Part shown: positions 6,704 through 39,820 of the stretch, in pieces | Layout of the letters: each line of letters opens with the position of its first letter | Numbering within the stretch: position 1 is the stretch's first letter | Assembly (NCBI GenBank): GCA_036504095.1 | Contig: DASXVS010000026.1 | Coordinates: 1 to 64,000 of the forward strand | Length of the DNA: 64,000 nt | Source: Armatimonadota bacterium | Lineage (GTDB): Bacteria > Armatimonadota > DTGP01 > JAKQQT01 | Direction: 5' to 3' | Notes under the pieces: model-generated | What the model was told of the DNA's origin: nothing | Databases searched by the model: none | Seen by the model: the letters and a program-made list of their open reading frames with translations, nothing else | Translations under genes and position numbers: made by a program

Positions 6704-6733
6704 GATAATTGGATATACTTATCCAGAATTATC
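6704..6733. promoter_or_regulatory. dyad operator candidate for the Rrf2 regulator
   Basis: The core is a perfect inverted repeat, TGGATA-TACT-TATCCA (6710-6725). It extends outward as GATAATT on the left and AATTATC on the right, with a two-base asymmetry. It lies just downstream of the predicted start of transcription of the NO reductase operon and upstream of the divergent regulator gene, a good place for a repressor of both. Confidence 0.55.
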
Positions 6734-20700: not shown

Positions 20701-21577
20701 ACCCCGGGAGCGGTTGGCCGGACATCGCCCTGCCTGTATATACCGGCCCCTGCTTCTTCTTCGTTCCGGGAAGCAAAGGAGCCGAGAAGATACTGTATGA
20801 GTCGGTTTCGGCTCCGGTCACAGCCAGCACGTCGAAGCCATCTTTCACGAAATCTGCGGAGACCGCCAGTCCGGGTTTTCCGCCACGCATCTTGGCGCTG
20901 ACCATCGGGCTAAGCTTGCCGTCGGTCAGCTTCAGGAAATCGATACGGTTCGCCGTTATCAGCCCGATCCGGTCCCTGCCCTCGCCCCAGAAGTCTCCAC
21001 AAACGAAACCGCCCGCGTTTCTGGCGACCGGGATCATTGCCTGCCGCCGCAAGATGGGGCTTCCCGGGGTACCGGTGACTCCCCAGACTTCGATCTGGCG
21101 GCCACGCGGGGACGAGGTGAGCACAAGCAACTGGTCCTTCTTCTGGCCAAGGAGGTCGCCCGCGGCTGATTGGAGCACCACCCCCTGGAGCTTTACAGAG
21201 CTTCCGCTCGACCACTTCCACGGCATCGTGCCGAACGCTTCGGGCGCCTCGGCGAAGAAGGCCCTGGTCCCGGAAGGGGCCTTTGTCAGTAGGACGGCGT
21301 ATTCCTTGCCTACGCCCCCCGGCCAGAAATCGCCTACCGACAGTCCGCCGGGAATGACGCTGTTGTATCGCGCGCCGGAATCGACCCACCGGCGAAGCCA
21401 TACCGCGTTCTTCGCCCGGAGGGGCGGCTCATACGCCGACAACCGGGCGCCCCGGGCGTCACGCTCGATGGTCACAAGATAGGGGTACCCGGAGCCCCAA
21501 TGCTGAGGGCCGGCCTGGGATGAGGCAGCGCCTGAAAGGAGGAGCAGTGCTGCCAGACTCGCTTGGGAATGCTTCAT
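17765..21577 (-). CDS. large secreted protein with M64-like zinc motif and NHL-like repeats
   Basis: A 1270-residue exported protein. Residues 1-22 are a signal peptide (M-K-H-S-Q... A-S-S-Q-A-G). About 60-330 resemble FG-GAP/VCBS-type propeller repeats (C-G-D-F-W-G-E-G-R-D-R-I-G-L). A CARDB-like beta-sandwich lies near 390-520 (A-I-K-N-N-G-A-T-P-I-P-A-G-A). Residues 606-619 read H-E-T-E-H-L-F-H-P-L-G-D-L-Y, matching the HExxHxxxxxxD-x-Y zinc pattern of M64 (IgA-peptidase-like) metalloproteases, with Glu607 as the catalytic candidate. The C-terminal ~250 residues look like NHL propeller repeats. No dockerin-like end. ATG at 21577 has GGAGAA eleven bases upstream; the open frame reaches further up but those residues look non-coding. 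Confidence 0.8.
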   Translation of the reverse strand: MKHSQASLAALLLLSGAASSQAGPQHWGSGYPYLVTIERDARGARLSAYEPPLRAKNAVWLRRWVDSGARYNSVIPGGLSVGDFWPGGVGKEYAVLLTKAPSGTRAFFAEAPEAFGTMPWKWSSGSSVKLQGVVLQSAAGDLLGQKKDQLLVLTSSPRGRQIEVWGVTGTPGSPILRRQAMIPVARNAGGFVCGDFWGEGRDRIGLITANRIDFLKLTDGKLSPMVSAKMRGGKPGLAVSADFVKDGFDVLAVTGAETDSYSIFSAPLLPGTKKKQGPVYTGRAMSGQPLPGFSGANQTFAMAARLDTRGGIIGAGVGRVFGYVRDTPISAIRKSHGIDPRPDAEIAFTSRFPLYSLTKGAPHYGWPLKGETFGYDVAIKNNGATPIPAGAKLTVWFGAKQRNADTSEATMRKPDRVVKIGKPIPPFDPMHPSYIHIKVQGKWPYSLIKMSPQATWMKINLEQVGERWLVLKLDAPGDRTLRNNRVEAAFHAHTFHPIHRENTLADRVPTVLGDPCSLEYLSSKLADAETCVWERSRTQNNEDVLQRVFFDGYKIGFPDAETDEAKRLAAWHAIQEWWEGWRELDIWTGENQTWEKYDWSYSPELHETEHLFHPLGDLYGNYVMPVWLRECKMADGTPVQMRTNLWGPDLFGDGHALIGPAACELMKRYLVGSRGAGLEAWWTVAPKTVKVQILDRAGKPVPNAEVTWWSDSHIGAVGAGRTDATGCWDVSSFFGKLSEPDKIGVRHFYGDQNGGLTDFNADIFTVRIGSYQDAAILGASDVNAHSRLSLLHHAMLNPEEWTWPIKTNYAPDAPEPDFKLVSAVRGARISIDVDGPKAKYALYRSWEPAYIREKLGEFEAGGDTPPMIQDMAEADGHSAGRFRAIYEVTRLADGKESLPRRISVCGLKNGKGVSAMNDGRLVVATNAGIANPFAVIFDGTTPAEEFFYHYRFGHTARKVVQSLKDPKRFYVTLTGSDTKPAYGFDIAVPNATGAYEVRSEMNDFSCSSFTGSTTQTLTLADQKMADRLNPGDSIYVGDKYVRIIAKDGLALTTDGRVFADGATNLTFTADRTAGSPGSRAEMRELDHAGGLACLNVAGKEYVAIADTGNHRVVVWSDTTAYVAKYDDPAFTPMAIAADPIEPSAFGVVGRTGAGVASVRRMTFDGAGLNLVKEVPLSDASVSTNGALGIAIAKMPGEPFQVAISDAEGKQVLEYTAGANALTLQTKLVKAIGVCAGDPTLEKPLDVAYVEKDGVLQLFALDNADRLVRLR

Positions 21578-26268: not shown

Positions 26269-26406
26269 ATATAAACTACCACCGATTTATCAACCAGGTC
26301 AATGGACAATTGGATTTATTTCGAGTTGGACGGGGCGCCTTCGCCGCGAGAATCTTCCCATGTTTTCCCCATGGTTGACAGAAGCATGATTCAGATAACC
26401 CGGCCT

Positions 26407-26534
26407 TGATCCCCATGGACGCCCTGACCACGGTGACGTTGATGCTGCGGGCGGTGGGCCACCCCATCCGGCTGCGGATCCTCGATTATCTGCGTAATGA
26501 AGGCGAGGCGCGTACGGTGAGCCAGATAGAGGCA
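26407..26534 (+). pseudogene. truncated copy of the arsR gene 5' part
   Basis: 128 bases match 28063-28190 of the intact ArsR-family gene with only a handful of differences, encoding M-D-A-L-T-T-V-T through S-Q-I-E. Similarity stops abruptly inside the recognition region, so no complete winged helix is made. Just upstream, GGTTGACAGAA is shared with the intact promoter, but the -10 box and the first codons are not. Same orientation, about 1.66 kb apart, flanking the Rex-like gene: a partial segmental duplication. Confidence 0.85.
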
Positions 26535-26660: not shown

Positions 26661-27692
26661 TCACTGGCTCTGACGCGTTAACTCAGGCATCGCCGAGACT
26701 GCCGCGGGCGACTGCCGGCCGGCGGCACGGGCGCCGAACGGCCGGGCGGGCTGTCGAGTGCGCGGAAGCCGGGTATCGTCGCTGACCGTCATCGCCAGGG
26801 CCATCATCTCGCCTACGAGGTCAACCTGCCGCACGCTGACATGCGGGGGCAGTGACAGTGTAGATGGCGTCATGTTCAGGATGCCCCTCGCGCCCGCTTC
26901 AACCAATTCGTCGGCGACTCTGGAGGCGAACTCCGGCAGCGCCAGGACCGCGCCATCGACGTTGCCGTTTGAAAAGACCGCGCCGAGATCGGACAGAGGC
27001 AGCACTTCCCATTGCCCAACCTTCTTTCCGATCCACTCCGGCCGTGTGTCGAAAGCCGCGACGATCCGGAAGTTGAGGTCAACGGCGGGCGCGAATGTTG
27101 TTAGAAGGTTACTGAGCCATTCTGCCCCTACCCACGCCAGCAGGCACGTCTGGTGCTCCAGAAGCTGATGGAGGCGCTCCTGAAGATAAGAGACCTGATA
27201 CCCGAGCCCGGGCGTGCCCAGGTCGCCGACATAGGAAAGGTCCTTGCGAACCATCGGGGCGCCTACCCCCACCTTGTCCGCCAGTTCGCGTGACGAGATA
27301 ATGTCAATGTCGTGCTCCGCGAAGTCGCCGAGCGCCGTGACGTACCAGCGGAAGCGCATCAGCGTTTTGAGAGGAAGCCGTGGAAGCGTCGAGCCGCCGA
27401 CTTCCCTGTGCTCAATATGCCGGGCGACGCGCCAAACCCACTGGTCCCGCTCGTCGATGCCGGCGCGCAGGGGGCATACGTGTTCCAGCTTCCCCCGCTG
27501 CATGCACTCCGCGTTCGTGCACGCCTGGCAGTCGGTGATGCCCTGGGCGTGAACGCATGAGTAAATCGTGCAGGGGGTCCGTCCCCACGCCTCCAGGAAA
27601 GAATTGCCCTGACGGCACCCGAAGCAATTACCCTCATCACGGTATCGGCACTGCCCGCAATCGAACAGCCCGCAGCACGAGACGCAATCCAC
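26661..27692 (-). CDS. DUF3795-like Cys-rich domain fused to a Rex-family regulator
   Basis: A 343-residue protein. Residues 1-73 carry thirteen cysteines (positions 3, 6, 7, 12, 15, 23, 26, 41, 46, 55, 58, 63, 73) in a DUF3795-like pattern (C-C-G-L-F-D-C-G-Q-C; C-F-G-C), likely binding zinc or an Fe-S cluster. About 110-190 is the Rex winged helix (S-R-E-L-A-D-K-V-G-V, V-R-K-D-L-S-Y-V-G, G-L-G-Y). About 190-300 is the Rossmann-type domain (I-V-A-A-F-D, G-I-L-N-M-T-P), but the NAD(H) loop, normally G-A-G-N-L-G, reads G-A-E-W-L-S. The C-terminal ~40 residues are basic and disordered. The start is GTG at 27692: AAGGAGG lies six bases before it, while the upstream TTG/ATG have none. DNA binding seems intact; classical NADH sensing may not be. 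It neighbours arsR-DUF302. Confidence 0.85.
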   Translation of the reverse strand: MDCVSCCGLFDCGQCRYRDEGNCFGCRQGNSFLEAWGRTPCTIYSCVHAQGITDCQACTNAECMQRGKLEHVCPLRAGIDERDQWVWRVARHIEHREVGGSTLPRLPLKTLMRFRWYVTALGDFAEHDIDIISSRELADKVGVGAPMVRKDLSYVGDLGTPGLGYQVSYLQERLHQLLEHQTCLLAWVGAEWLSNLLTTFAPAVDLNFRIVAAFDTRPEWIGKKVGQWEVLPLSDLGAVFSNGNVDGAVLALPEFASRVADELVEAGARGILNMTPSTLSLPPHVSVRQVDLVGEMMALAMTVSDDTRLPRTRQPARPFGARAAGRQSPAAVSAMPELTRQSQ

Positions 27693-27990
27693 GCACGACC
27701 TCCTTGATCGTGCCGTCATGCACAAAGGACTGATAACCGGCCCACGATCTCCGCATTATAAGCATGAACGCATTGACCGGTGCCACATATAACTGAAGAT
27801 TATCTCCAGCCGCTCCGATTGCTCGCTGCAGGATACCCTTGCCCTCATCGGCTAAAGGCGTCACCTGGGATACGGTGCCTGTTGGTACCCGCTCCGTGGA
27901 ACGGCGCAGCGCTGACCGGCTTCAGGCGGTCTTCAGCTCCAGACGTCGGCATCCGCTCATGGACACGTGGAGCGCTGACTCAGTGCACGG

Positions 27991-28019
27991 TTGACAGAAT
28001 CTCGAAATTGCTATATAGT
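27991..28019 (+). promoter_or_regulatory. consensus promoter of the arsR operon
   Basis: TTGACA (27991-27996) and TATAGT (28014-28019) are exactly 17 bases apart. The start of transcription would fall at about 28026-28028, on the ATG of arsR, implying a leaderless message. Confidence 0.75.
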
Positions 28020-28029
28020 AGATGTATAT
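28013..28029. promoter_or_regulatory. ArsR-type operator candidate
   Basis: ATATA-GTAGATG-TATAT, an inverted repeat covering the -10 box and the start of transcription. A+T-rich dyads of this spacing are typical ArsR/SmtB-family sites, so autorepression is likely. It contains TGTATAT, also found near 32981, 33152 and 34724. Confidence 0.55.
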
Positions 28030-28360
28030 GAAAGACAGTACCGAATCGAACACTCAATCCCTGATCCCGATGGACGCCCTGACCACCGTGACGCCAATGC
28101 TGCGGGCGGTGGCCCACCCAATTCGGCTGCGGATCCTCGATTATCTGCGTAATGAAGGCGAGGCGCGTACGGTCAGCCAGATTGAGGAGGCATGCGGCGC
28201 GCAGCAGGCTGTTGTGAGCCAGCAATTGCGCATCCTCAAGGACCAGGGCGTCCTCGGTTCACAGCGCCAGGGCAATTTCGTCTTCTACAGCATCGCCACC
28301 CCCAGCGTCCTTCTCATCCTCGACTGCATCCGGCAACACAATGCCGGCGCTTCCTGCTAG
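28028..28360 (+). CDS. ArsR/SmtB-family transcriptional repressor
   Basis: A 110-residue winged-helix regulator. Helix 1-2 (L-R-A-V-A-H-P-I-R-L-R-I-L-D-Y-L), the recognition helix (A-V-V-S-Q-Q-L-R-I-L-K-D-Q-G-V-L) and the wing (R-Q-G-N-F-V-F-Y-S-I) are canonical. Cysteines are at 56 (before the recognition helix), 100 and 110 (C-terminal helix and tail). The classical ELCVCDL metal site is absent. The spacing does not place a pair exactly as in the persulfide sensors SqrR/BigR. The inducer is therefore open (thiol, sulfur species or metal). No ribosome site exists; the promoter puts transcription start at this ATG, so leaderless translation is likely. An ATG at 28022 would lie upstream of the start. 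First gene of an operon with two tiny ORFs and DUF302. Confidence 0.9.
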   Translation: MKDSTESNTQSLIPMDALTTVTPMLRAVAHPIRLRILDYLRNEGEARTVSQIEEACGAQQAVVSQQLRILKDQGVLGSQRQGNFVFYSIATPSVLLILDCIRQHNAGASC

Positions 28361-28422
28361 ACGCCCCCGGGGAATGGTTTCGTCCGCCCGGTTGTTGGGA
28401 ATAGAGGAAGGACGGTAAAGCA

Positions 28423-28512
28423 ATGCCAGACTATCTAGTGACGATCCTGTTCATCGTCGCCTACTTTGCGTTGATGAAATGGATCCTGCCCCGCGCCGGA
28501 GTCCCGACCTGA
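28423..28512 (+). CDS. 29-residue single-helix membrane microprotein
   Basis: M-P-D-Y, then a hydrophobic span (L-V-T-I-L-F-I-V-A-Y-F-A-L-M) followed by K-W-I-L-P-R-A-G-V-P-T. GAGGAAGGA lies ten or so bases before the ATG, a strong ribosome site for so short a frame. The one helix with Lys/Arg after it would insert with the C-terminus in the cytosol. It lies 62 bases after arsR and abuts the next short frame (TGA-ATG). Probably a small partner of a membrane complex or transporter; nothing in it names one. Confidence 0.65.
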   Translation: MPDYLVTILFIVAYFALMKWILPRAGVPT

Positions 28513-28605
28513 ATGTCCGATAGCTGCCGCGTCGAGTCTCGACGCGATCATCTGGACGAAGAGGCGCCTCCGTCCCCGGACGCCCCCGCTGAGCACAACA
28601 ACTGA
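28513..28605 (+). CDS. possible 30-residue microprotein
   Basis: The ATG follows the stop of the 29-residue frame with no gap (TGA-ATG), so translation could be re-initiated. The product is hydrophilic and acidic at the end (M-S-D-S-C-R-V-E-S, then H-L-D-E-E-A-P-P-S-P). It has no ribosome site except the coupling. It ends twelve bases before the DUF302 start, whose own ribosome site (GAGGAG) follows. It could instead be only the spacer. Confidence 0.35.
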   Translation: MSDSCRVESRRDHLDEEAPPSPDAPAEHNN

Positions 28606-28617
28606 AGAGGAGTGCGA

Positions 28618-29034
28618 ATGGAACCGCTTGAAGCCGCGTATGGGAAAATGGGAATTACGACCTCCGTGGTCGATTCGATCGAGAACACATCCTCCCGGGT
28701 GAAGGCCGCGCTGAAAGAAGAGGGGTTCGGCGTGCTGACAGAAATCAATGTGGCCCAGACGCTTAAGGATAAGCTGGGCGTCGACTTCCGTCCGTACGTT
28801 ATCCTCGGCGCATGCAATCCCAGTCTCGCCTATCGGTCGCTCACAACGAACCCGGCGATGGGACTGATGCTGCCGTGCAACGTGGTGATCGAACAGCGGG
28901 AGGGAATGTGCATCGTTTCCGCGATGGACCCCGAAGCTGGCATCGCCGCGTTCGGCGCTGAAGAGCTCAAGCCGGTCGCCGATGAGGCGAAAGAGCGCCT
29001 CACGAGGGTTATCGCCGCGGTCGCCGGCCACTAG
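28618..29034 (+). CDS. DUF302-family protein
   Basis: A 138-residue soluble protein of the DUF302 family (signature G-F-G-V-L-T-E-I-N near 34, Y-V-I-L-G-A-C-N-P near 61, L-L/M-P-C-N-V near 84). Members are small cytosolic alpha/beta proteins whose job is unknown, often beside ArsR regulators and sulfur or metal genes. The two conserved cysteines (A-C-N-P and P-C-N-V) could bind a thiol-reactive ligand. ATG at 28618 is chosen over GTG at 28612, since GAGGAG ends six bases before it. Last gene of the arsR operon; a strong terminator follows. Confidence 0.9.
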   Translation: MEPLEAAYGKMGITTSVVDSIENTSSRVKAALKEEGFGVLTEINVAQTLKDKLGVDFRPYVILGACNPSLAYRSLTTNPAMGLMLPCNVVIEQREGMCIVSAMDPEAGIAAFGAEELKPVADEAKERLTRVIAAVAGH

Positions 29035-29059
29035 CCATCTACTATTATTCAGCACACGC

Positions 29060-29100
29060 AACAATGGGGCCCGGGCAATTTCTGCCCGGGCCCCATTGTT
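29060..29100. terminator. bidirectional terminator hairpin
   Basis: A perfect 18-base-pair stem (29060-29077 with 29083-29100) around the loop ATTTC, ending in ATTGTT on one side and, read leftward, also ATTGTT. It lies between the convergent DUF302 and octahaem cytochrome genes. Confidence 0.85.
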
Positions 29101-29117
29101 ACGTCGCTTTGCGGTGA

Positions 29118-31349
29118 CTACCTCGCCGCCATCTGTTTCTTCGCCTGGTCAATCCACTTGAGTTCGCGCAGATGGGTCAAATCCTGGACCTTGGCGGGGC
29201 TGTATCCGAGCGCCTTGAAGTCCATGATCCCGTTCGGGCTGTGGCATTCCTGGCACGCGCGGCCTTCCTTCTGGATGCCATGATTCACCATCAGTGTGCC
29301 CATCTGGCGCATCCAGTGCGGCTGCAGGTTCTTCCGGTATCGCGGATCCAGCGGGTAGTTCGGGTTCCACACGCCCACGCCGAAGTACTTCATGAACTCG
29401 TCCATCATGTAGTACTTGAACGGCGCCTGGTACATCCGCTTCACCATGGGGTTGCTCACGGCCACCTCCATTGCTTTGCGGGAATCTCCCGTTTCGTAGT
29501 AGGTGGCGTAGTCAAACGGCATGATCATCGCCCCGAACGGTCCCTGGTTGCCCATGTCTTCGTACATGTAGGCGTTGAACATCTTGAACGGGTAGATTTT
29601 GCTCGGGAACCTGTCCATAGTTGGGCGAAGGTTCTGTTCGACCACGGATGCCCGCGTCGCACGCATCTCCGGGCTCAACTGTGTCAACGTGTCCAGCGGC
29701 GCTGTCAGATACGTGGATGGATCCAGTTTGTTCGCCACGAAAAACGCGCGGTTGGACGCCAGTACTTCCTTGCGGATCGCCGGGTTGGACAGCCGGGTAA
29801 TCTGGTTCATCAGGGGATTGTACGCCGTGCCACCCAACGGATTGTCGCCCAGCGCGTTGGCAAGGAACGTTCCATAGCCGTTGAACCACAGGAACTGGAG
29901 GCCCTTGCCGGCCTGTCCGTTCCGGTAGATGTCGGTGGGAACGTACACACCCTCCCGCTTGTCGAACGTCGGGTGCACCCAATCCCGCAGCACAACGCTC
30001 CTGGCCTGGAGACTCTTGATGTGGCAGGTCTCGCAGGCTACGCGCGCACTGTGCCCATTCAGGATCACTCGGGTGAGCGGGTTCTTCGTGTGGGGCGCCG
30101 TCGTGTGACATGATTCGCACGACACGGCCTTGCCCGGCAGGTCGTTCGACACCAGATCGGTGCCCAGGCTGCCGCGCGGGATCTTGTGACCCTGCGGCCG
30201 GTGGCAGTCGAGGCAGTTCATGTTCGCCTTCGCGTGCACGTCGTCCTCGGCCGCGAACGGATTTCCGCGTTTCGCCCCGTCGTGGAGGAGACGAGAGTTG
30301 GTGAATCCCAACGACCGCGAGGCCACGTTGTGGGCATAGACATCGCCGCCCATGTTATGCTGGTGGCACCGCAGGCACGATTTGGCGGTCGGCCGCCCCA
30401 CCGTCAGCGCCGCTCTCATCGTCCGGTCCTGATCCCAGCGCATCCCCACGTTGTCCTTGATCACGTGGCGATAGTTCATATCGTAAGTGTCCGAGTGGCA
30501 GATGAGGCAGTCCAGTCCGTGCTTCGTAGCCGTCGGAATCTTGAACGCCGGAAGCATCAGTTCCGTCGCCGGGTGGTAGTTGCCGCCGATGTGGCACTGG
30601 CCGCAACCCTCACTCCGCATCACGACTTTGCCGCCGGCCGATGCCGGCTTGCTCTTCACCAGGGACGCCCAGCCGGTCCACGAGAAACTCCCAGGGATGC
30701 CGCATGCCCGGTCGATTTTGCCGACCGGCACGGGCCGGGTTCCAGCCCCGTCCACAACGCGGCCGTCGTAACCAACGGTCGAGAAACCGGCGACCATTCT
30801 CTGGAACTGGAAGTGGGAGGTGTCCATCACGTCGTCCATCGTGTCTACCTGATGGACGTTGCCGTCCGGCCCGTTGACCTTCATCGTCTGATGGCACTTC
30901 AGGCAGGTTTCCGGCCCGGTGTAGGAGCGGATGCCGGCCCGTCGGAAGTACTCGATATGCGGGTAGCGATTGCCCGCAGAACGGAAGGACGCCGTTTGGA
31001 GCAACAGGCGCTCACGTTCCTGGCGCACGACGGGGTCTTTCGAATTCTCCGATAGCTTGGCGGCATCGGCCTCGCGGGCGCCGCGCACAAGGCTGTCCGC
31101 CAGCGCATCGAACTCATCCGGCGTAAGCGTTTGCACGCTGCTGTACTTCAGCGGACCGTTCCTGATCCCTGTGTACCATTCCAGCCCGCCCTCTGCGAAG
31201 ACGTAAAATGCCAGCCACAGCGCCAGCGGGATGGAGACGTAAATCAACGGCCGCTTTCGCTTTGCCATAAACGTCCGAAGGGGCGGCGCGACCTTGCCAA
31301 ATGGTTTCGCCCCCGCCTTCAGAGCGTCCTTAATCCGTTTCCAGAACAT
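29118..31349 (-). CDS. membrane-anchored octahaem cytochrome c
   Basis: A 743-residue periplasmic electron carrier or reductase. Residues ~35-55 form one membrane anchor (P-L-I-Y-V-S-I-P-L-A-L-W-L-A-F-Y-V-F). Eight CxxCH haem sites follow: C-L-K-C-H near 147, then C-G-Q-C-H, C-L-I-C-H, C-L-R-C-H, C-L-D-C-H, C-E-S-C-H, C-E-T-C-H, and a distant C-Q-E-C-H near 702. The ~230 residues between haems 7 and 8 carry none and may form a catalytic or docking domain. I do not match it to a named octahaem enzyme (hydroxylamine oxidoreductase and OTR are shorter). ATG at 31349 has GGAG nine bases upstream and overlaps the end of the cytochrome b gene. Third gene of the cytochrome operon. Confidence 0.9.
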   Translation of the reverse strand: MFWKRIKDALKAGAKPFGKVAPPLRTFMAKRKRPLIYVSIPLALWLAFYVFAEGGLEWYTGIRNGPLKYSSVQTLTPDEFDALADSLVRGAREADAAKLSENSKDPVVRQERERLLLQTASFRSAGNRYPHIEYFRRAGIRSYTGPETCLKCHQTMKVNGPDGNVHQVDTMDDVMDTSHFQFQRMVAGFSTVGYDGRVVDGAGTRPVPVGKIDRACGIPGSFSWTGWASLVKSKPASAGGKVVMRSEGCGQCHIGGNYHPATELMLPAFKIPTATKHGLDCLICHSDTYDMNYRHVIKDNVGMRWDQDRTMRAALTVGRPTAKSCLRCHQHNMGGDVYAHNVASRSLGFTNSRLLHDGAKRGNPFAAEDDVHAKANMNCLDCHRPQGHKIPRGSLGTDLVSNDLPGKAVSCESCHTTAPHTKNPLTRVILNGHSARVACETCHIKSLQARSVVLRDWVHPTFDKREGVYVPTDIYRNGQAGKGLQFLWFNGYGTFLANALGDNPLGGTAYNPLMNQITRLSNPAIRKEVLASNRAFFVANKLDPSTYLTAPLDTLTQLSPEMRATRASVVEQNLRPTMDRFPSKIYPFKMFNAYMYEDMGNQGPFGAMIMPFDYATYYETGDSRKAMEVAVSNPMVKRMYQAPFKYYMMDEFMKYFGVGVWNPNYPLDPRYRKNLQPHWMRQMGTLMVNHGIQKEGRACQECHSPNGIMDFKALGYSPAKVQDLTHLRELKWIDQAKKQMAAR

Positions 31350-32004
31350 GGTTGTCAATCTCCGGGACCCGCGTCGGTCCCACGTTCGGCTCGGCGATAG
31401 CGCCGCCGGTGATCATTGCGCGCAGCCCCGAATGCGGTTCGGAGCACGTGAGCGCGAGGTAAACGTGCATGGCAAGAAACGCCACGAAGCAGTAAGCCAA
31501 CAGCGTGTGGAGGACGGCCATCGGCCACACTCCTCCGATGCCGGCAACCCGTTCCGGCGCCGTCTCGGGAAATAGCATGAAGAGGCCGGTAATGGCCAGC
31601 ACTGGGAACCCGACGAACATCGTCGCGGCATATGTCAATTGCTGCAGCGGGTTGAACCGGCGCTCCGGCGTGGCATGGAAAGGGTGCGGCTCACCGCGGG
31701 CGATCCCGCCGAGGTAGTACGCCGCCTGGACCCGCAGCCGCCCGACGATGCCGTGCAAGCGGACGGCATACTGGCGCCATTCCCCGGTGAAAATGAGGAT
31801 TGCCACATAGACGAAGTAATTCAGAGCCAGCAGCGCGCCGGCCAGGTTATGTGTGAGGACGGCGAGCCTGAAGGACACGGGCGCCGCGCCAGCGCCGGCG
31901 AAATGGAGGCTGAAGCCGGTCACGGCCAGCGTGACAAAGAGCGCGGCGTTCATCCAGTGCCATCCGCGGACCCATCCCGGGAACATCGGGCGCGTGGTCA
32001 TCAT
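31330..32004 (-). CDS. cytochrome b (b561/FdnI-like), quinone-linked membrane subunit
   Basis: A 224-residue integral membrane protein with four helices and four well-placed histidines: G-W-H-W-M-N in helix 1, L-T-H-N-L-A-G in helix 2, V-L-H-T-L-L-A-Y and A-M-H-V-Y-L-A in the last helices. This is the layout of the dihaem cytochrome b of formate dehydrogenases and hydrogenases, which passes electrons between quinones and periplasmic subunits. The ATG overlaps the stop of the hexahaem gene (ATGA), and GGGGAGGACAA precedes it. The 3' end overlaps the octahaem gene by 20 bases. It probably links the quinol pool to the two multihaem proteins made from the same message. Confidence 0.9.
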   Translation of the reverse strand: MMTTRPMFPGWVRGWHWMNAALFVTLAVTGFSLHFAGAGAAPVSFRLAVLTHNLAGALLALNYFVYVAILIFTGEWRQYAVRLHGIVGRLRVQAAYYLGGIARGEPHPFHATPERRFNPLQQLTYAATMFVGFPVLAITGLFMLFPETAPERVAGIGGVWPMAVLHTLLAYCFVAFLAMHVYLALTCSEPHSGLRAMITGGAIAEPNVGPTRVPEIDNHVLETD

Positions 32005-32957
32005 TTGTCCTCCCCGGCGTGGCCGGATGGGCCTCGTCCGCGCGTCCTCAAGACCGTATGGCCACCCATGCCCGCCAGCGTTCCGAGGACGATGAGGGCG
32101 CCCAGCGTGTCCAGAATCCTGTTGCGCGTTGCGCCGATAACGTAGGTGTTGTTGACGATGAGCGCGTTCGCAAACCCCAGCCGCGCCATCTCCTGTCCGC
32201 GTTCGTGTTTGTAGAGCTTGTCGCGCAGCACCGTGTTGGCCGAATGACATTTCACACAGTCGCGGACGGCCTGGCTCTTCGGCATAATGAGGTGGCTGTG
32301 GGACGGTGCGACGGCGCTGGCGTGGCAGTCCAGGCAGCGGACCTGCGCCATGTGTATCTCAGCGTGCGGCAGCCAGGCGTGCACCACGGATAGATCGGGC
32401 ACGCGACGCCCGGCGATGCGCGAGTAGTTCTCCTGCGATGCATGGCAGCGAAGACAAATCGCGTTCCTTTCGGCCACGCTCTGCCGCGTAACTTCGCGCC
32501 AGCGCCGGAAGGAGTGCGGATCGTGGCATCGGAAGCACGTAAACAAGGTAGGGTGCTTTTGGAAGTGAACGCTCTGCTTGAACTCGTTCTGAATCTCCGC
32601 GAGGGGCGCCCCCGCGAGATCCGGTTTGTTCTTTCCTAAAACGGCCGCAAACTGAAGCGGAGGCCGCTTCGGGTGCGGAAATCGCTTGAACCCCGCATCG
32701 TGGCACCGCGTACATGGGAGGGCCCCGATCTCGCTGGCGCTGAAGGTTTTCGGGTTCACGGAGAGGTTTTCAACCTCACCGGTTGGGGCGCGTCGCGCGA
32801 AAGTGCCCATGGAGTGGCACCGGAGACAGGAGCCGTTCACGGTGGCATCCGGCCCAACCGCGGCGGCCGGCGCCGAAAGGATACACGCCAGCGCCGCAAA
32901 CAGGGCGGTCGCCAGGCCGGCGTGCGTGCGTCGTCTTGTTGTCATACCGCCAATCAC
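32001..32957 (-). CDS. hexahaem cytochrome c
   Basis: A 318-residue exported cytochrome. A signal or anchor segment (L-A-T-A-L-F-A-A-L-A-C-I-L-S-A-P-A-A-A) is followed by six CxxCH sites: C-L-R-C-H, C-T-R-C-H, C-F-R-C-H, C-L-R-C-H, C-L-D-C-H, C-V-K-C-H. A C-terminal helix (I-L-D-T-L-G-A-L-I-V-L-G-T-L-A-G-M-G-G) probably anchors it in the membrane. The start is GTG at 32957, since GGGAGG lies eight bases before it; the ATG at 32945 is too far from any site. First gene of the operon hexahaem - cytochrome b - octahaem, overlapping the second by four bases. Expressed from the divergent region shared with the OmpP1 gene. Confidence 0.9.
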   Translation of the reverse strand: MIGGMTTRRRTHAGLATALFAALACILSAPAAAVGPDATVNGSCLRCHSMGTFARRAPTGEVENLSVNPKTFSASEIGALPCTRCHDAGFKRFPHPKRPPLQFAAVLGKNKPDLAGAPLAEIQNEFKQSVHFQKHPTLFTCFRCHDPHSFRRWREVTRQSVAERNAICLRCHASQENYSRIAGRRVPDLSVVHAWLPHAEIHMAQVRCLDCHASAVAPSHSHLIMPKSQAVRDCVKCHSANTVLRDKLYKHERGQEMARLGFANALIVNNTYVIGATRNRILDTLGALIVLGTLAGMGGHTVLRTRGRGPSGHAGEDK

Positions 32958-32980
32958 AACAGGTGCCTCCCGAGATGGGG

Positions 32981-33001
32981 TGTATATAGGTATATACCTA
33001 T
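32981..33001. promoter_or_regulatory. palindrome before the cytochrome operon
   Basis: A perfect 16-base palindrome, ATAGGTATATACCTAT (32986-33001), overlaps the heptamer TGTATAT (32981-32987). It lies about 30 bases upstream of the hexahaem start in a G+C-rich genome. Likely operator; the cognate protein is inferred to be ArsR-like. Confidence 0.55.
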
Positions 33002-33145
33002 CTATCCACGTTCAGGAAGAATTATAACCGATTTCGCAAAAAATGCATAGCCCCATACCCGGTATTTATCAATTGCCGACCATTTTGGTCGGAAATAGGC
33101 GGAACGCACGCGTCGGCTCCGCGATTCATTAACCTTCGCATAAAT

Positions 33146-33177
33146 TTGATATGTATATATTGCTGTGTCTATATAAT
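33146..33177 (+). promoter_or_regulatory. A+T-rich promoter region of the OmpP1 gene
   Basis: A perfect -10 box TATAAT (33172-33177) has only TTGATA (33146-33151) upstream, 20 bases away, so an activator or relief of repression may be needed. TGTATAT occurs at 33152-33158 between them. The 97-base leader runs to the ATG at 33275. Confidence 0.5.
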
Positions 33178-33274
33178 GCCCTGAAGTTCGCGGGCCCGCA
33201 CCATTTCGATGCGCTCACCGGCAGCACCGCGCCTTACATCGCCCCCCACGGGCACTTCTTTAGGAGACAAAAGC

Positions 33275-34576
33275 ATGAAAAGGATCGCTTTGTTCGCCAG
33301 TCCGGTCGTTGCTTTGGCCGCCTGCCTCGCCTGCGCCGGCCCGGGCCTCGCCACCAACGGCTATTTCACGCACGGGTTCGGCACCAAATCCAAAGGGATG
33401 GCGGGCGCGGGAGTTGCGCTTCCACAGGACGCGATGATCGGCGCCACGAATCCCGCCGGTATGGCCTTCGTCGGCAAGCGCCTGGACCTTGGCTTGTCGC
33501 TGTTCAATCCGGTGCGCCAGTACACCGTCAAGGGTGCGCCGTCCGGTCTCCCCGCCACGTTCGGGCTGACCCCGGGGACCGTCAAGAGCGGGCGCGATTG
33601 GTTTGCCATACCGCACGTTGCCTACAACAACCCGCTCGGTCCGAACAGCAGCGTCGGCATCTGTGTCTACGGAAATGGTGGGATGAACACGAGCTATCCC
33701 GGTTCCGCGGGCGGCGGAGCAGGAACGTTCTATGGCGGCCCCGCCGGGGTGAACCTGGAGCAGCTTTTCATTGCACCGACCTACGCCAGCAAATTCGGCG
33801 AGACCGCCTCGTGGGGCGTAGCGCCCATCTTCGCCTACCAGCGCTTCGAAGCCAAGGGCCTTAAGAACTTCGGCGCGTTTGCCGCCGATGGTGATGCGGA
33901 CAACCTTTCCGACAAGGGGACCGATACATCCACCGGAATGGGTTTCAGAGTCGGTGTCCAGGGGCAGGTGCAGCCGGACCTCACCCTCGCGGCGTCTTAC
34001 CAGTCGAAGATGAAAATGAGCCGCTTCAAGAAATACGACGACCTTTTCGCCGGCCGGGGTCGATTCGACATCCCCCCCACGGCAACCATCGGCCTCGCGT
34101 ACAAGACCGACCCGAAGTCCGTGCTAGCCTTCGATATTCAAAGCATCTGGTACAGCAAGGTCGCCGCGATCCACAATCCCCTCAGCAACCTGTTTGAAGG
34201 CCCGGACACAACCGGGCTCTTGGGTGACGATAAGGGTGCAGGGTTCGGATGGCGCGACGTAACGGTTGCCAAACTCGGCTACCAGCGCGAAGTCTGCCCG
34301 GCGTGGACCGTTCGCGGCGGTGTCAGCTACGGCCGCCAGCCCATCCCGTCGTCCGAAGTCCTCTTTAACATCCTGGCCCCGGGTGTCGAGCAGTGGCACT
34401 TCACGGGCGGGTTTACGCACGCCACCGGTCCGAAGGACGAGTTCACGATGTCCGTGATGTTTGCCCCAAACGTGAATGTGAAGGGCCCGAACCCGATGGA
34501 AGCCCCCGGTCAGCAGACCATAAGCCTCAGGATGCACGAGTTTGAGGCCGAAGCCAGCTGGGGAATCAAGTTCTAG
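33275..34576 (+). CDS. OmpP1/FadL-family outer-membrane channel
   Basis: A 433-residue beta-barrel of the FadL/OmpP1/TodX family, which moves hydrophobic molecules across the outer membrane. The signal peptide (M-K-R-I-A-L-F... G-L-A) is followed at once by the family's N-terminal hatch motif: N-G-Y-F-T-H-G-F-G, then K-G-M-A-G-A-G-V-A, and N-P-A-G-M. Alternating strands continue to the C-terminus, which ends W-G-I-K-F with the terminal Phe expected of outer-membrane barrels. TAGGAG precedes the ATG; the longer frame from 33209 lacks such a site. Its position between the cytochrome operon (divergent) and the RND genes suggests a shared substrate or stimulus. Transcription ends at the hairpin that follows. 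Confidence 0.92.
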   Translation: MKRIALFASPVVALAACLACAGPGLATNGYFTHGFGTKSKGMAGAGVALPQDAMIGATNPAGMAFVGKRLDLGLSLFNPVRQYTVKGAPSGLPATFGLTPGTVKSGRDWFAIPHVAYNNPLGPNSSVGICVYGNGGMNTSYPGSAGGGAGTFYGGPAGVNLEQLFIAPTYASKFGETASWGVAPIFAYQRFEAKGLKNFGAFAADGDADNLSDKGTDTSTGMGFRVGVQGQVQPDLTLAASYQSKMKMSRFKKYDDLFAGRGRFDIPPTATIGLAYKTDPKSVLAFDIQSIWYSKVAAIHNPLSNLFEGPDTTGLLGDDKGAGFGWRDVTVAKLGYQREVCPAWTVRGGVSYGRQPIPSSEVLFNILAPGVEQWHFTGGFTHATGPKDEFTMSVMFAPNVNVKGPNPMEAPGQQTISLRMHEFEAEASWGIKF

Positions 34577-34613
34577 CGCGGACGCTTCTATTCCGCCCTG
34601 ACAGGGCATTCGA

Positions 34614-34653
34614 AATGCGGGAGGCTCCTTGCTGCGGCAGGGCCTCCCGCATT
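34614..34653 (+). terminator. terminator after the OmpP1 gene
   Basis: AATGCGGGAGGC (34614-34625) pairs with GCCTCCCGCATT (34642-34653), followed by CTACTTTT. A typical rho-independent terminator, which makes the RND genes a separate transcription unit. Confidence 0.8.
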
Positions 34654-34717
34654 CTACTTTTGGGACGCAAACGGGCCGGGCCTGTCGGGAACCGACTACA
34701 CGTCCTTCGCTGTTGAG

Positions 34718-34730
34718 TACATATGTATAT
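34718..34730. promoter_or_regulatory. palindrome before the RND operon
   Basis: TACATATGTA (34718-34727) is a perfect palindrome and runs into TGTATAT (34724-34730). It lies about 50 bases before the adaptor start, in an A+T-rich stretch. Candidate site for the same regulator as at 28013 and 32981. Confidence 0.5.
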
Positions 34731-34775
34731 TACTATGTTACTATGCCCCGTGTGTATTTCAGTGGAGGTTAGCCT

Positions 34776-36248
34776 TTGAAACCCAGAAACAAACGGATCT
34801 TTGCAGGAGTGGCTGTGCTTGTTTTGGCGCTGAGCGCGTTGGTGCTAAGGGCCCGCAATTCGCCGATCCGAGCCGACGAGGCGCCCGCGCCGGCACGCGC
34901 CCCCGCCCACGTGGTGCTCAGCACCGCGAATCTGACCACCGTTCCCCAGTATCTCGACGCGACCGGCCTGACCCGCGCTGAACTGGAAGCCGTGATCGCC
35001 ACCAAGATCCAGGGCCGGGTATTGCGGGTCTTCGTTCGCGAAGGCGAGCGCGTCCGGCGCGGCCAGCCCCTCGTACAGATGGATGCGCGCGATCTAAGCG
35101 CCGCAGTGGCACAGGCCTCGGCCGGGGTTCGAAGCGCATCGGTGGGCTATGGGAACGCGCAGGTCGCCGCGTCGATGGAGCAGAGCATGTCCGCCGCGCG
35201 CATCGCCCAGGCGGAAGCGTCCCTCGCGAACGCACAGGCCGCGCTGGAAGCCGCGCGGGCCAAGGCCGAAATGGTCGTATCGGGCCCCCGCCGCCAGGAG
35301 CGCACCCAATCAGGGCTGGCCGTCGCGCAGGCGCAATCCGGTGTGAATCTGGCCCAGGCCAACCTCGGGCGCATGAAATCGCTTTTCGAGCAGGGCGCCA
35401 TCTCCAGACAGCAACTCGACACCTATCAGAGCCAGTACGAAGTGGCGAAGGCGCAGTACGATACCGCCCGTGAATCGCAAAGCATCTCCGATGAAGGCAG
35501 CCGCTCGGAGGACATTCGCGCTGCCCGGGAAGGCGTTCGCCAGGCCGAAGCGGGAATTGCGTTGGCGAAGGCCGGCGTGAAACAGGCGCGGGCCGCAGCC
35601 AAGCAGGCCGACGTTCGCCGCGCCGAGATACTGGGCGCGAAGGCACAGGTCGGACAAGGCCAGGCAGCCCTTCAGATGGCGAGGGTAACCCTCGACTACG
35701 CGACCATCGTGGCGCCGTTCGATGGGGTTGTCACCCGACGTTCCGTTGACCCCGGCTCCCTTGCGACCCCCGGGACGCCGCTCCTGACGCTTCAGGGTGG
35801 AGATCTAAGGCTGGAAGCAACCGTGCCCGAGAGCAGCCTCTCCTCGGTCCGTCCGGGATCAACCGTGCCGGTGGACCTGGATGCGTTCGCCGGCCGCCCC
35901 GTGACCGGCAGAGTGGTGGAGATCTCCCCTCAAGGCGATCCGGCAAGTCACACGTTCACCGTGAAGGTGCGGCTCCCCGCTGACAGCGGTGTCCGATCCG
36001 GTATGTTCGGCAGAGCGCGATTCCGCACCGGCACGGGGCGCCAGATTCTGGTTCCCACCACGGCCATCCTGCCTCGCGAGGGGCTCACGTACGTGTACGC
36101 CGTGGGTGAAGGCCGCCGAGCGAGTCTTCGACTGGTGACCACGGCAGCCGCGGGCGGACACCGCACGGCCGTTCTCTCGGGGTTGCAGCCTGGTGAACGG
36201 GTGGTGACGTCCGGAGCGGTGAGCGACGGGCAGTCCGTGGAAGAGTAG
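34776..36248 (+). CDS. RND efflux periplasmic adaptor (HlyD/membrane fusion protein)
   Basis: A 490-residue membrane fusion protein. An N-terminal helix (I-F-A-G-V-A-V-L-V-L-A-L-S-A-L-V-L) anchors or exports it. A lipoyl/biotinyl-like half is at ~70-105 (G-R-V-L-R-V-F-V-R-E-G-E-R-V-R-R-G-Q-P-L). A long coiled-coil hairpin spans ~110-300, rich in Ala/Gln/Glu and longer than in AcrA-type adaptors. The second lipoyl half is I-V-A-P-F-D-G-V-V-T-R-R, and the barrel and membrane-proximal parts follow (G-M-F-G-R-A-R-F, V-P-T-T-A-I-L). The start is TTG at 34776, with GGAGG seven bases upstream. The RND pump follows after 51 bases. No TolC-type gene is in the window. Confidence 0.92.
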   Translation: MKPRNKRIFAGVAVLVLALSALVLRARNSPIRADEAPAPARAPAHVVLSTANLTTVPQYLDATGLTRAELEAVIATKIQGRVLRVFVREGERVRRGQPLVQMDARDLSAAVAQASAGVRSASVGYGNAQVAASMEQSMSAARIAQAEASLANAQAALEAARAKAEMVVSGPRRQERTQSGLAVAQAQSGVNLAQANLGRMKSLFEQGAISRQQLDTYQSQYEVAKAQYDTARESQSISDEGSRSEDIRAAREGVRQAEAGIALAKAGVKQARAAAKQADVRRAEILGAKAQVGQGQAALQMARVTLDYATIVAPFDGVVTRRSVDPGSLATPGTPLLTLQGGDLRLEATVPESSLSSVRPGSTVPVDLDAFAGRPVTGRVVEISPQGDPASHTFTVKVRLPADSGVRSGMFGRARFRTGTGRQILVPTTAILPREGLTYVYAVGEGRRASLRLVTTAAAGGHRTAVLSGLQPGERVVTSGAVSDGQSVEE

Positions 36249-36299
36249 ATCAGCGCTACGGCGCCGAGTTTTCGCGCGCCCGCCGACAGGGACATGACT

Positions 36300-39200
36300 A
36301 TGAAATTGGGAATCGCAGGGCGGATGGCCTCCGCATTTATAAACAGCAAGCTTACGCCGCTCGTTATCATCGCGTCGCTCGCATTGGGCGCCTTCGCGGT
36401 ATGGAAGACACCCCGCGAGGAAGAACCGCAGATCATCGTTCCGATGATGGACGTCATCGTTCAGATGCCGGGCGCGACTGCGAAAGAGGTGGAGCAGCGC
36501 GTCACCGTACCGATGGAGAAGCTGATCTGGGAGATTCCCGGCGTCGAATACGTTTACTCGACTTCCAGCCCGGGGCAATCCATGGCCATCGTCCGCTTCC
36601 TCGTGGGCCAGGACCAGGAAGCCAGCCAGGTTCGGCTCCGCGAGAAACTCCAGGGCCACTATGACCTGGTCCCGCCGGGCGCATCGGCCCCGATACTGAA
36701 GGCACACTCGATCGACGACGTTCCAATCCTCGCGCTCACGCTGCACAGCACGAAGTACGATGCGCCGGCGCTCCGGCAGATCGCAGCCCGCATCGACGAT
36801 GCGGTGAAGCAGGTGGAAAACGTCTCCGAGACGACCATCATCGGCGGGCCGCGCCGCGAGGTGCGAGTGGTCCTGGACAAGGGCCGGCTCGCCGGGTTCG
36901 GTCTTTCGCCCGATGGCGTTGCCGAAGCCCTCGGCGCATCGAACCAGCGCTCTCAGGCCGGTGATTTCGCCGGAGGAAATTCGCAGCTGTCGATCAAGAC
37001 GGGGCAGTTTCTCCGGAACGCGAAAGATGTTGAAAGCGTTGTCGTCGGAGCTGCCGGCGGACGGGCGATTTTCCTTCGCGACATTGCTTCCGTCATTGAC
37101 GGCCCGGGGGAGCCCCACAACTACGTCCAGTTCGGGTACGGCCCCGCCGGCCGCGAGGCTGCGGCTGGCGCGGTCTCGCGCGGGGTCGAGAGGTCGGCCG
37201 TTGAGCCGGCGGTCACCATCTCCATAGCCAAGCGCCAGGGTAAGAACGCGATCGAGATCGCAGACGCGGTTCTTCGCAAGGTTGACACGCTGAAGGGAAC
37301 GATCATCCCCTCGGATGTGCAGATAGCAGTCACGCGCAACTACGGCGAATCGGCCAACGAAAAATCCGGCGAACTTCTCCTCCACATGCTGATCGCGGTT
37401 GTGAGCGTGACGCTTCTCATCGCGTTCGCTCTCGGCCGCAGGGAGTCTCTGGTGGTGGCGGTTGCGATCCCTGTGACGCTGGCGCTCACCCTTCTCGTAT
37501 TCTATCTGTACGGCTATACCCTGAACCGAATCACGTTGTTCGCGTTGATCTTCAGCATCGGTATCCTCGTCGATGACGCCATCGTGGTCGTAGAGAACAT
37601 CGTTCGGCACTATCGGATGCCCCAGGACGAGCCCGTGCCTCCCCTGGTACTTGCGATACGGGCCGTCGACGAAGTTGGCAACCCGACGATCCTGGCCACG
37701 TTCGCCGTTATCGCGGCTATCCTGCCGATGGCATTCGTCGGCGGGTTAATGGGCCCATATATGAGGCCCATTCCGGTCGGGGCAACAGCCGCTATGCTGT
37801 TCTCGCTCCTCATCGCGTTCATCGTGACGCCATGGGCGGCGTTTCGCGTGCTCAAGGGTGAACACTCGAAAGCCTTCCACGACAAGCACTCTCACGAGGG
37901 CAAGGATGATTTCCTAACGCGCCTCTACCGGGGAGTGATGACGCCGATGCTGCGCTCCGGCAAACTGCGCGCCGTGTTTTTCGGCGGAGTCATCGTACTG
38001 CTTCTCGCATCGATGGGCCTGGTGGCGCTCAAGGCCGTCACGGTGAAGATGCTGCCGTTCGACAACAAGAATGAGTTCCAGGTGATTGTCGATATGCCGA
38101 CGAATTCCACTCTGGAACAAACGGCCGCGGCAACACGCGCATTGGCGGATTACGTTGCCACCATCCCCGAAGTTGAGAACTACCAGACGTATGTGGGAAC
38201 GGCCGCGCCGTTCAACTTCAACGGGCTCGTGCGGCACTATTTCATGCGCCAGGCCCCCTACCAGGCGGACATTCAGGTAAACCTGCTCGGAAAGAACGAT
38301 CGCAAGGCGCAAAGCCACGGTATCGTCAAACGGATCCGCCCCCAGATCGCCGCGATCGCCGCAAAATGGGGCGTCCGTGTGAAAGTGGCCGAGGTGCCGC
38401 CGGGTCCTCCGGTTCTCCAGACGCTGGTTGCCGAGGTCTACGGTCCAACGCCCGAGAGCCGCCAGGCCGTCGCCGCCCACGTGAAGCGCGTCTTCGAAAC
38501 GACGTCCGGCGTGGCGGATGTGGACTGGTATTCGGATGACGAACAGGAAACCTACCGGTTTGAGGTAGACAAGGAGAAGGCCGCGCTGGTCGGCGTCGAC
38601 ACCTCCGCCATCAACCGCACCCTCGCCACGGCCCTGAGCGGAGCGCAGGTGGGGCTGTTACACGACGAGGGCGCCCGCGAGGACATCCCCCTAACGATGC
38701 GGCTCGCGCGTTCCGAACGGAGCAGCCTGAACGATCTTGAGCAACTCTCGGTAAGCGCGCGTGACGGCCACCTGGTGCCCCTCAGCTCTCTGGTCAGGGC
38801 GGTGGCGATTCCCACCGACAAGTCCATCTACCACAAGAACCTGTTGCCAGTTGTGTACGTTACGGGTGATGTCGTAGGGCGGCAGGAAAGCCCGGTCTAC
38901 GCGATCATGGCGATGAACCATGCTCTGCGCAAGGCATCATTCCCCGGGAATTCAAAGCTGGAGATCCTCAGCACTCGGATGCCGTTCACAACTCAGAAAC
39001 CGGTCATGAAATGGGATGGTGAGTGGCAGATAACCTACGAGGTTTTCCGCGACCTGGGCATCGCGTTCGCGGCGGTTCTGGCGATCATCTATATCCTGGT
39101 TGTGGCCTGGTTCCAGTCCTTCAAGACACCGCTGGTGATCATGGCGCCGATCCCGCTCACGCTGGTCGGCATCCTGCCGGCCCACGCTTTGATGGGCGCG

Positions 39201-39563
39201 TTCTTCACGGCCACAAGCATGATCGGATTCATCGCCGGCGCCGGCATCATCGTGCGCAACTCCATCATCCTTGTGGACTTCATCGAACTGCGCCTCAAGC
39301 AGGGAATGCCGCTCGAAGAGGCCGTAATCGACGCCGGCGCGACCCGCTTCCGGCCAATGCTGTTGACGGCCGCCGCCGTCATCGTCGGGTCGTTCATCAT
39401 CCTGTTCGACCCGATCTTCCAGGGTCTGGCGATCAGCCTGATGGCAGGCGAGATCGCCTCTACGCTTCTTTCCCGGCTGGCCGTGCCGATCCTCTACTTC
39501 GTGATGAAGCAGCGTGAAGGGATCGCCGCGGTCGCACACGCCATTCCCGCGCCTTTGCCCTGA
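36300..39563 (+). CDS. RND-family efflux transporter
   Basis: A 1087-residue inner-membrane pump of the resistance-nodulation-division superfamily. Helix 1 ([17 protein letters not shown]) leads into the first large periplasmic domain ([12 protein letters not shown]). Helices 2-6 follow with the proton-relay Asp pair in [13 protein letters not shown] near 425. A second periplasmic domain and helices 8-12 complete the duplicated fold. The start sequence P-R-E-E-E-P-Q-I and the sequence type place it near the HAE1-like/unassigned branch rather than clearly heavy-metal CusA. ATG at 36300 has AGGGA seven bases upstream; the ATG at 36294 has almost no spacing. Downstream are a short palindrome and DUF2892. 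The substrate is unknown. Confidence 0.92.
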
Positions 39564-39631: not shown

Positions 39632-39820
39632 ATGACAACAGAACGGTATTTGCGGTTGATCGGTGGAGCGTTTGTGGTGGCCTCAGTCGCCCTCGGCACA
39701 TATGTGAGCCCGTGGTTCTACGCTTTCACGGCCTTTGTTGGGTTGAACCTGTTTCAGAGCGCCTTTACGAACTGGTGCCCAATGAAGGCCTTGTTGGAAA
39801 AGATCGAGCCGCGTTCGTGA
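39632..39820 (+). CDS. DUF2892-family small membrane protein
   Basis: A 62-residue inner-membrane protein with two hydrophobic segments (L-I-G-G-A-F-V-V-A-S-V-A-L-G; F-Y-A-F-T-A-F-V-G-L-N-L-F-Q-S-A-F) and the family end T-N-W-C-P-M. DUF2892 also forms the membrane tail of YgaP-type rhodaneses, linking it loosely to sulfur handling. GAAAGGATACAGAA precedes the ATG. It lies 68 bases after the RND pump gene in the same direction and probably belongs to that unit. The single Cys (N-W-C-P-M) is conserved in members I know. Confidence 0.88.
   Translation: MTTERYLRLIGGAFVVASVALGTYVSPWFYAFTAFVGLNLFQSAFTNWCPMKALLEKIEPRS

Follow-up and report, generated by a model that had tools for sequence, protein, structure and literature searches.

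Repressors of the ArsR family that sense sulfane sulfur through two cysteines are encoded in the vicinity of sqr, pdo and rhodanese genes and of transporter genes (RND, TauE and YeeE), and the cysteine pair is missing from some ArsR proteins encoded close to sulfur genes (PMC12423496). We analysed a stretch of 64,000 nucleotides (the window; contig C26) from the 4.68-Mb genome of an uncultured Armatimonadota bacterium (GCA_036504095.1), in which an arsR gene begins a locus of ten genes. On the plus strand, arsR is followed by a small gene with an in-frame UGA (named sel) and a DUF302 gene. A minus-strand block then encodes a hexahaem cytochrome, a cytochrome b and an octahaem cytochrome. Plus-strand genes for an OmpP1/FadL channel, an HlyD adaptor, an RND permease and a DUF2892 protein complete the locus. 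We consider it likely that the whole is a sulfur-responsive regulon of one ArsR/SmtB-type repressor over four transcription units. The first-pass annotation of this DNA knew no described system with this combination; in view of the sulfane-sulfur ArsR genes near RND, TauE and YeeE genes, parts of the combination have been described already.

The ArsR of the window resembles SqrR, BigR, YgaV, SoxR and sHdrR (PMC12423496) in its fold, in A+T-rich operators at promoters and in nearby sulfur-transfer, RND, TauE and YeeE genes in its family, but it has one invariant cysteine (C102) where the known sensors have two. It scores 37 bits against the BigR equivalog, whose cut-off is 155. An ArsR in a selenoprotein setting also recalls NF045707 (TsoR), presumably, from the model names and PMC13188914, the regulator of tso selenoprotein neighbourhoods. 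The match to this model is weak (E=5.6e-11), its 42 bits falling short of the cut-off of 115, and sel matches no NCBIfam model, Tso families included.

The other products have described relatives as well. The octahaem cytochrome has the eight CXXCH motifs of octahaem tetrathionate reductase (TIGR04315; PDB 1SP3) and is locally similar to it across the haem core, but it is about 300 residues longer than 1SP3 and is paired with a cytochrome b and a hexahaem protein. A full-length permease and adaptor are present as in RND systems of the MexK/MdtB type, but the permease does not reach the cut-offs for multidrug permeases, a DUF2892 gene closes the operon, and the genes are linked to arsR in relatives. 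The sel gene has the in-frame UGA, the hairpin behind it, the cysteine homologues and the matching selenocysteine machinery of known selenoprotein families; of those listed in PMC13188914, none has the single-helix LPxLGVPT-U-MSxxC form.

An operator shared by four promoters

The element shared by the four promoters is a 22-bp palindrome with the consensus ATATAGnnATATnnCTATAT, not the heptamer TGTATAT from which common control had first been proposed. We trained a position weight matrix (PWM) by palindromic expectation maximization on the 190 bases upstream of arsR in 30 relatives, with this genome excluded. The procedure returned tATATAGtgATATcaCTATATa, which is clear in most of the 30 arsR promoters. 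The log-likelihood was 217.7, compared with 35–45 for shuffled input, and removal of near-duplicate loci left the result unchanged. The background for the PWM scan was 873,565 bases of the genome, and two further searches covered all 4.68 Mb. The highest-scoring site lies at the promoter of the cytochrome operon (32983–33004, 32.1 bits), followed by those of HlyD-RND-DUF2892 (34718–34739, 28.1 bits), OmpP1 (33154–33175, 19.9 bits) and arsR (27996–28017, 14.8 bits). These four promoters rank 1, 2, 3 and 6 among distinct places in the scanned bases, and none of three Markov-1 control runs produced a site above 15 bits. A sequence-only model run over the whole genome (150 of 252 candidates scored in a first look) returned two matches at E<=10, at 32983 (E=0.2) and 34719 (E=2.4), E-values that are not significant apart from their location. 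The sharing of one ArsR-type operator by the four promoters is real and well beyond chance, as had been proposed. Ranks 4 and 5 are held by C26:90331 (L177:6331; 18.0 bits) and C43:12721 (L205:12721; 16.7 bits), good operator matches with no obvious sulfur gene beside them.

In most of the four promoters the operator fills the spacer between the -35 and -10 boxes. The arsR promoter (27991–28019, plus strand) consists of TTGACA (27991), a 17-nt spacer holding the operator, and TATAGT (28014). The boxes are TTGATA (33146) and TATAAT (33172) for OmpP1, and TTGAGT (34713) and TGTTAC (34736) for HlyD. The same operator precedes arsR in Gemmatimonadota (L084, 29.1 bits), Latescibacterota (L085, 27.9 bits), Deltaproteobacteria (L093, 27.6 bits), Oligoflexia (L096, 25.9 bits) and Myxococcota (L126, 34.2 bits).

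The position of the -10 box makes ATG 28028 the most likely start of arsR (28028–28360, plus strand; alternative ATG 28022). The box ends 8 nt before this codon, and a similar picture is seen in L059, L060 and L064. Since ATG 28028 falls at about +2 of the predicted transcript, adjoining the predicted transcription start, the arsR message may be leaderless.

The heptamer does occur exactly at 28023, 32981, 33152 and 34724, as first reported, and a fifth copy in the window, absent from that list, lies at 20735. Where 1.31 copies are expected, five are present, a number also reached in 2 of 100 shuffles; the count by itself is weak evidence. At 28023 the heptamer overlaps the arsR start codons (ATGTATATG, 28022–28030) and is not the promoter site it was taken for, the better site there being 27996–28017. 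We rejected TGTATAT as the shared motif because of this overlap and because the copy at 20735 has a PWM score of -2.4. The annotated dyads ATAGGTATATACCTAT (32986–33001) and TACATATGTA (34718–34727) are exact. A genome-wide dyad search had been suggested as a check. With up to three mismatches allowed, the whole genome has three occurrences of ATAGGTATATACCTAT, of which two are in the window (32986 and 34721). The reversed control has as many genome-wide matches, so that only the clustering is unusual. The exact pattern ATANNNNTATNNNNTATNT had no match and was too strict.

Gene order in other genomes connects the regulator with its presumed targets. In at least eight other Armatimonadota genomes, arsR directly precedes HlyD-RND-DUF2892 (L043/L056, L044, L045/L062, L046, L060, L065, L071, L073 and L088), and in Gemmatimonadota (L082, L084) it stands beside the same genes, which bears out the proposed link between ArsR and the pump. 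The link to OmpP1 is borne out as well: the genes after arsR in L077 and L078 encode two flavoproteins of the HdrA/Qmo type, a protein like QmoC, a member of the DsrE family (checked in L077) and an OmpP1 with 51–53% identity to that of the window (arsR-QmoABC-DsrE2-OmpP1). The link to an octahaem cytochrome holds in part. In L092, arsR precedes a true TIGR04315 octahaem tetrathionate reductase (557 bits) and two proteins reading as YeeE/YedE, but this cytochrome is a different protein from that of the window and a better match to the family. In other genomes, three of the four target types thus occur together with this regulator.

A predicted small membrane selenoprotein

The first-pass annotation missed sel, a frame of 60 codons between arsR and DUF302 (28423–28605, plus strand). 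It is probably the local member of a new cross-phylum selenoprotein family that escapes ordinary open-reading-frame calling. The predicted product, MPDYLVTILFIVAYFALMKWILPRAGVPT-U-MSDSCRVESRRDHLDEEAPPSPDAPAEHNN, has one transmembrane helix and then LPRAGVPT-U-MSDSC, with the selenocysteine UGA at 28510–28512 and the stop TGA at 28603–28605. Relatives keep LPxLGVPT-U-M-S-x-x-C. Positive charges directly follow the helix and almost none precede it; by the positive-inside rule, the selenocysteine–cysteine pair would therefore face the cytoplasm.

An alignment search of Armatimonadota widened the set of genomes with sel from 23 to 31 of 291, and in 27 of these the reported match spans a UGA; inspection by eye covered only part of the weakest members. 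Among 37 genomes reached from other groups, 10 carry sel, 7 of them with UGA inside the match. Two members (in G120 and G226) have cysteine instead, and both genomes lack SelB and tRNA-Sec. Thus an in-frame UGA is matched by cysteine at the same position in homologues, the pattern by which selenoproteins are recognized. Of the 27 UGA carriers, 23 have SelB, compared with 118 of the 264 other Armatimonadota genomes (Fisher p=6e-5). Among the four carriers that lack SelB, two have tRNA-Sec, so that 25 of 27 have one or the other, and the remaining two assemblies are 78% and 88% complete. The genome of the window encodes both tRNA-Sec (74.2 bits) and SelB (367 bits).

A hairpin resembling a selenocysteine insertion sequence (28528–28546, plus strand; CGCGTCG-AGTCT-CGACGCG) lies 15 nt 3' of the UGA. 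Across the family, the hairpin occurs in two registers with centres about 3 nt apart, and for this reason we used a synonymous-codon test in place of covariation. RNA folding after the UGA is stronger family-wide than in synonymous-codon shuffles (Stouffer p=4e-9, the members not being independent). Near the sel operon, Rfam gave nothing relevant.

The sel product has no match in Pfam, a search of plasmids gave only a chance 20-residue match, and it fits no entry in a 2026 list of 119 prokaryotic selenoprotein families (PMC13188914). Since this comparison does not include Haft and Tolstoy 2025, the family is likely, rather than certainly, undescribed. It is a separate result from the regulon: because the gene is short and ordinary annotation cuts it at the UGA, many genomes probably contain unrecognized copies. 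The two results meet in L166, where sel lies inside the pump operon (HlyD-RND-x-sel-DUF2892), and in L093 and L170, where sel is behind an arsR, so sel belongs to the same theme as the ArsR and pump genes.

Some distant relatives of sel (L250, L251, L258 and L259) keep the UGA, while the downstream cysteine is lost or the frame soon ends. Such UGAs may be genuine stop codons, or the relatives may form a divergent subfamily.

The regulator, its signal and the alternatives

The ArsR of the window is an ArsR/SmtB winged-helix protein by its matches to PF01022 (41.9 bits, cut-off 22) and to the metalloregulator model NF033788 (71.5 bits, cut-off 55). Its recognition segment, QA[IV][VA]SQQLRILKDQG, is kept in relatives. 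The best full-length match among other ArsR proteins of the genome has 40% identity, and the only close copy is truncated. An alignment with 11 relatives leaves Cys102 (numbered from 28022) as the only invariant cysteine; a cysteine at the 'EAC' position is found in 5 of the 11, and His106 is nearly invariant. The known sulfane-sulfur mechanism with two cysteines is therefore inapplicable unchanged. We do not place this ArsR with SqrR and BigR, yet it probably answers a related signal, and a one-cysteine ArsR poses a mechanistic question, because the characterized sulfane-sulfur ArsR sensors use two.

In other genomes, members of the ArsR family stand beside genes of sulfur oxidation, transfer or export. 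In L060, the arsR-HlyD-RND-DUF2892 locus is surrounded by TauE, DUF302 and CoA-disulfide reductase-rhodanese genes. In L157, an MBL-rhodanese protein similar to persulfide dioxygenase and a CoA-disulfide reductase precede sel, and L169 contains DUF2892, an SQR-like protein, sel and DUF302. Together with DsrE and YeeE, these neighbours point to sulfane sulfur and not to arsenic, and the signal of ArsR is probably reactive sulfur. Regarding the arsenic-responsive class, we found neither a CXC motif in the ArsR alignment nor ars genes among the neighbours read. The first-pass annotation had suggested a hydrophobic or thiol-type compound; the thiol-type half of this guess fits the sulfur neighbours. 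The SQR-like gene of L169 (L169:4042–5322), directly before sel and DUF302, is similar to the type III sulfide:quinone reductase selenoprotein subtype, although its score of 127 bits is below the cut-off.

We propose that an ArsR dimer binds the palindrome, which overlaps or lies near the -35 and -10 boxes of the four promoters, and that bound ArsR would block RNA polymerase. An inducer, most likely reactive sulfane sulfur (persulfide, polysulfide or a thiosulfate-derived form), would release ArsR via a site that includes Cys102. Of the four units made on release, the first would supply ArsR, the membrane-anchored selenoprotein and the DUF302 protein (28618–29034, plus strand; PF03625, 84.8 bits). 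Just past its helix, on the predicted cytoplasmic face, the selenoprotein would carry a selenocysteine and a cysteine (UxxxxC) suited to accept or pass on sulfane sulfur.

The second unit would form a chain passing electrons from quinol to a periplasmic sulfur compound. It comprises, on the minus strand, the hexahaem c-type cytochrome (32001–32957, 6 CXXCH), the cytochrome b561-type quinol-side subunit (31330–32025) and the octahaem c-type cytochrome (29118–31358), which is distantly related to the tetrathionate reductase family. The cytochrome b resembles that of thiosulfate reductase most closely, with 153 bits, below the cut-off of that model. The third unit is the OmpP1/FadL/TodX-type outer-membrane channel (33275–34576, plus strand; PF03349). 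The fourth, also on the plus strand, would provide an RND pump from the HlyD/MFP adaptor (34776–36248; TIGR01730, above cut-off) and a permease of the AcrB superfamily (36294–39563; closest solved sequence MexK). It ends with a DUF2892-like small membrane protein (39632–39820), so named in the first-pass annotation, 57–79% identical homologues of which follow the RND gene in relatives. An outer-membrane factor gene is absent from the pump operon, and OmpP1 is of the FadL type.

More specifically, and only tentatively, the selenoprotein and DUF302 may form a sulfane-sulfur relay at the cytoplasmic face. The relay would stand under a one-cysteine ArsR with a cross-phylum operator, which would also switch on sulfur export through RND-DUF2892, the outer-membrane channel and a periplasmic multihaem reductase. 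Such a system would make selenium chemistry at the membrane a part of sulfane-sulfur handling, and it would give a likely role to several orphan parts together (DUF302, DUF2892, the RND pump and the FadL channel). The regulon also offers a testable operator and gene list for a largely uncultured phylum.

Several observations weigh against the sulfur regulon or its parts. ArsR lacks the two conserved cysteines of SqrR, BigR and SoxR. The operator sites of arsR and OmpP1 are weaker than the other two, and a search for an operator at the arsR-sel-DUF302 operon of G001, the nearest relative, found none (L055; PWM score -0.1). The hairpin of this genome's sel is unexceptional by itself (p=0.22), and most sel genes in other families are solitary, without sulfur neighbours. 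The octahaem cytochrome scores far under the tetrathionate reductase cut-off (TIGR04315, 77.5 against 375 bits). A further suggested check was whether the gene set stays together in relatives, and here the cytochrome operon fails: it occurs in 2 of 291 Armatimonadota genomes, and the second copy (L221, G030:C92), 54–69% identical, has no arsR and, when scanned, no operator. Because only one other Armatimonadota genome has the operon, there without arsR or operator, we suggest that it was transferred horizontally; in the window it looks like a local addition. Searched against plasmids, the octahaem protein had partial matches only (27–30%).

Alternatively, ArsR could be a metal or metalloid sensor that uses a C-x3-H pair in helix alpha5 as ligands, and the RND pump could export a thiophilic metal or metalloid. 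The family assignment and the NF033788 score agree with such a metal-efflux regulon, as do the conservation of Cys102 and His106, the matches of the adaptor to CzcB/NccB-type models (below cut-off) and the affinity of thiols and selenocysteine for soft metals. However, the permease is closer to MexK/MdtB than to CzcA/CusA, the neighbours elsewhere are sulfur-transfer rather than metal-resistance genes, and the protein shows no CXC arsenic motif, which make a metal signal unlikely. Export or reduction of a hydrophobic organic toxicant by the pump, channel and cytochromes, with the sulfur genes elsewhere being coincidental, seems to us quite improbable. RND pumps and FadL channels mostly handle hydrophobic molecules, but the regulator, OmpP1 and the selenoprotein each show the link to sulfur independently.

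It is very improbable that the four sites are A+T-rich promoter cores without any relation, alike through TATA-like -10 boxes, and that control by ArsR is confined to its own gene or the pump. The modest enrichment of TGTATAT, the overlap of the operator with -10 boxes and the scores of 14.8 and 19.9 bits agree with that reading; yet a matrix trained elsewhere finds its top three places at these promoters, few other promoters reach 15 bits, and shuffled training data yield no comparable motif. That UGA 28510 is an ordinary stop after a 29-residue peptide ending in LPRAGVPT, with incidental conservation downstream, is hardly credible, since M-S-x-x-C-x-V-E-x-R is conserved past the UGA in nearly all 21 aligned UGA members and the two cysteine members read straight through in genomes without SelB or tRNA-Sec, even though the local hairpin is unremarkable and some distant members have lost the downstream cysteine.

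Other features of the window

Upstream of the locus, a truncated duplicate of the arsR start (26388–26534) is 84% identical over 49 residues and then continues into unrelated sequence. The gene at 26661–27725 (minus strand), adjoining the arsR copies, encodes a Rex-type redox repressor that is extended at its N terminus by a long cysteine-rich segment. Farther away, the dyad GATAATTGGATATACTTATCCA (6704–6725) lies between divergent genes for an Rrf2-type regulator and a nitric-oxide-reductase-like protein, and is probably the site of another regulator.

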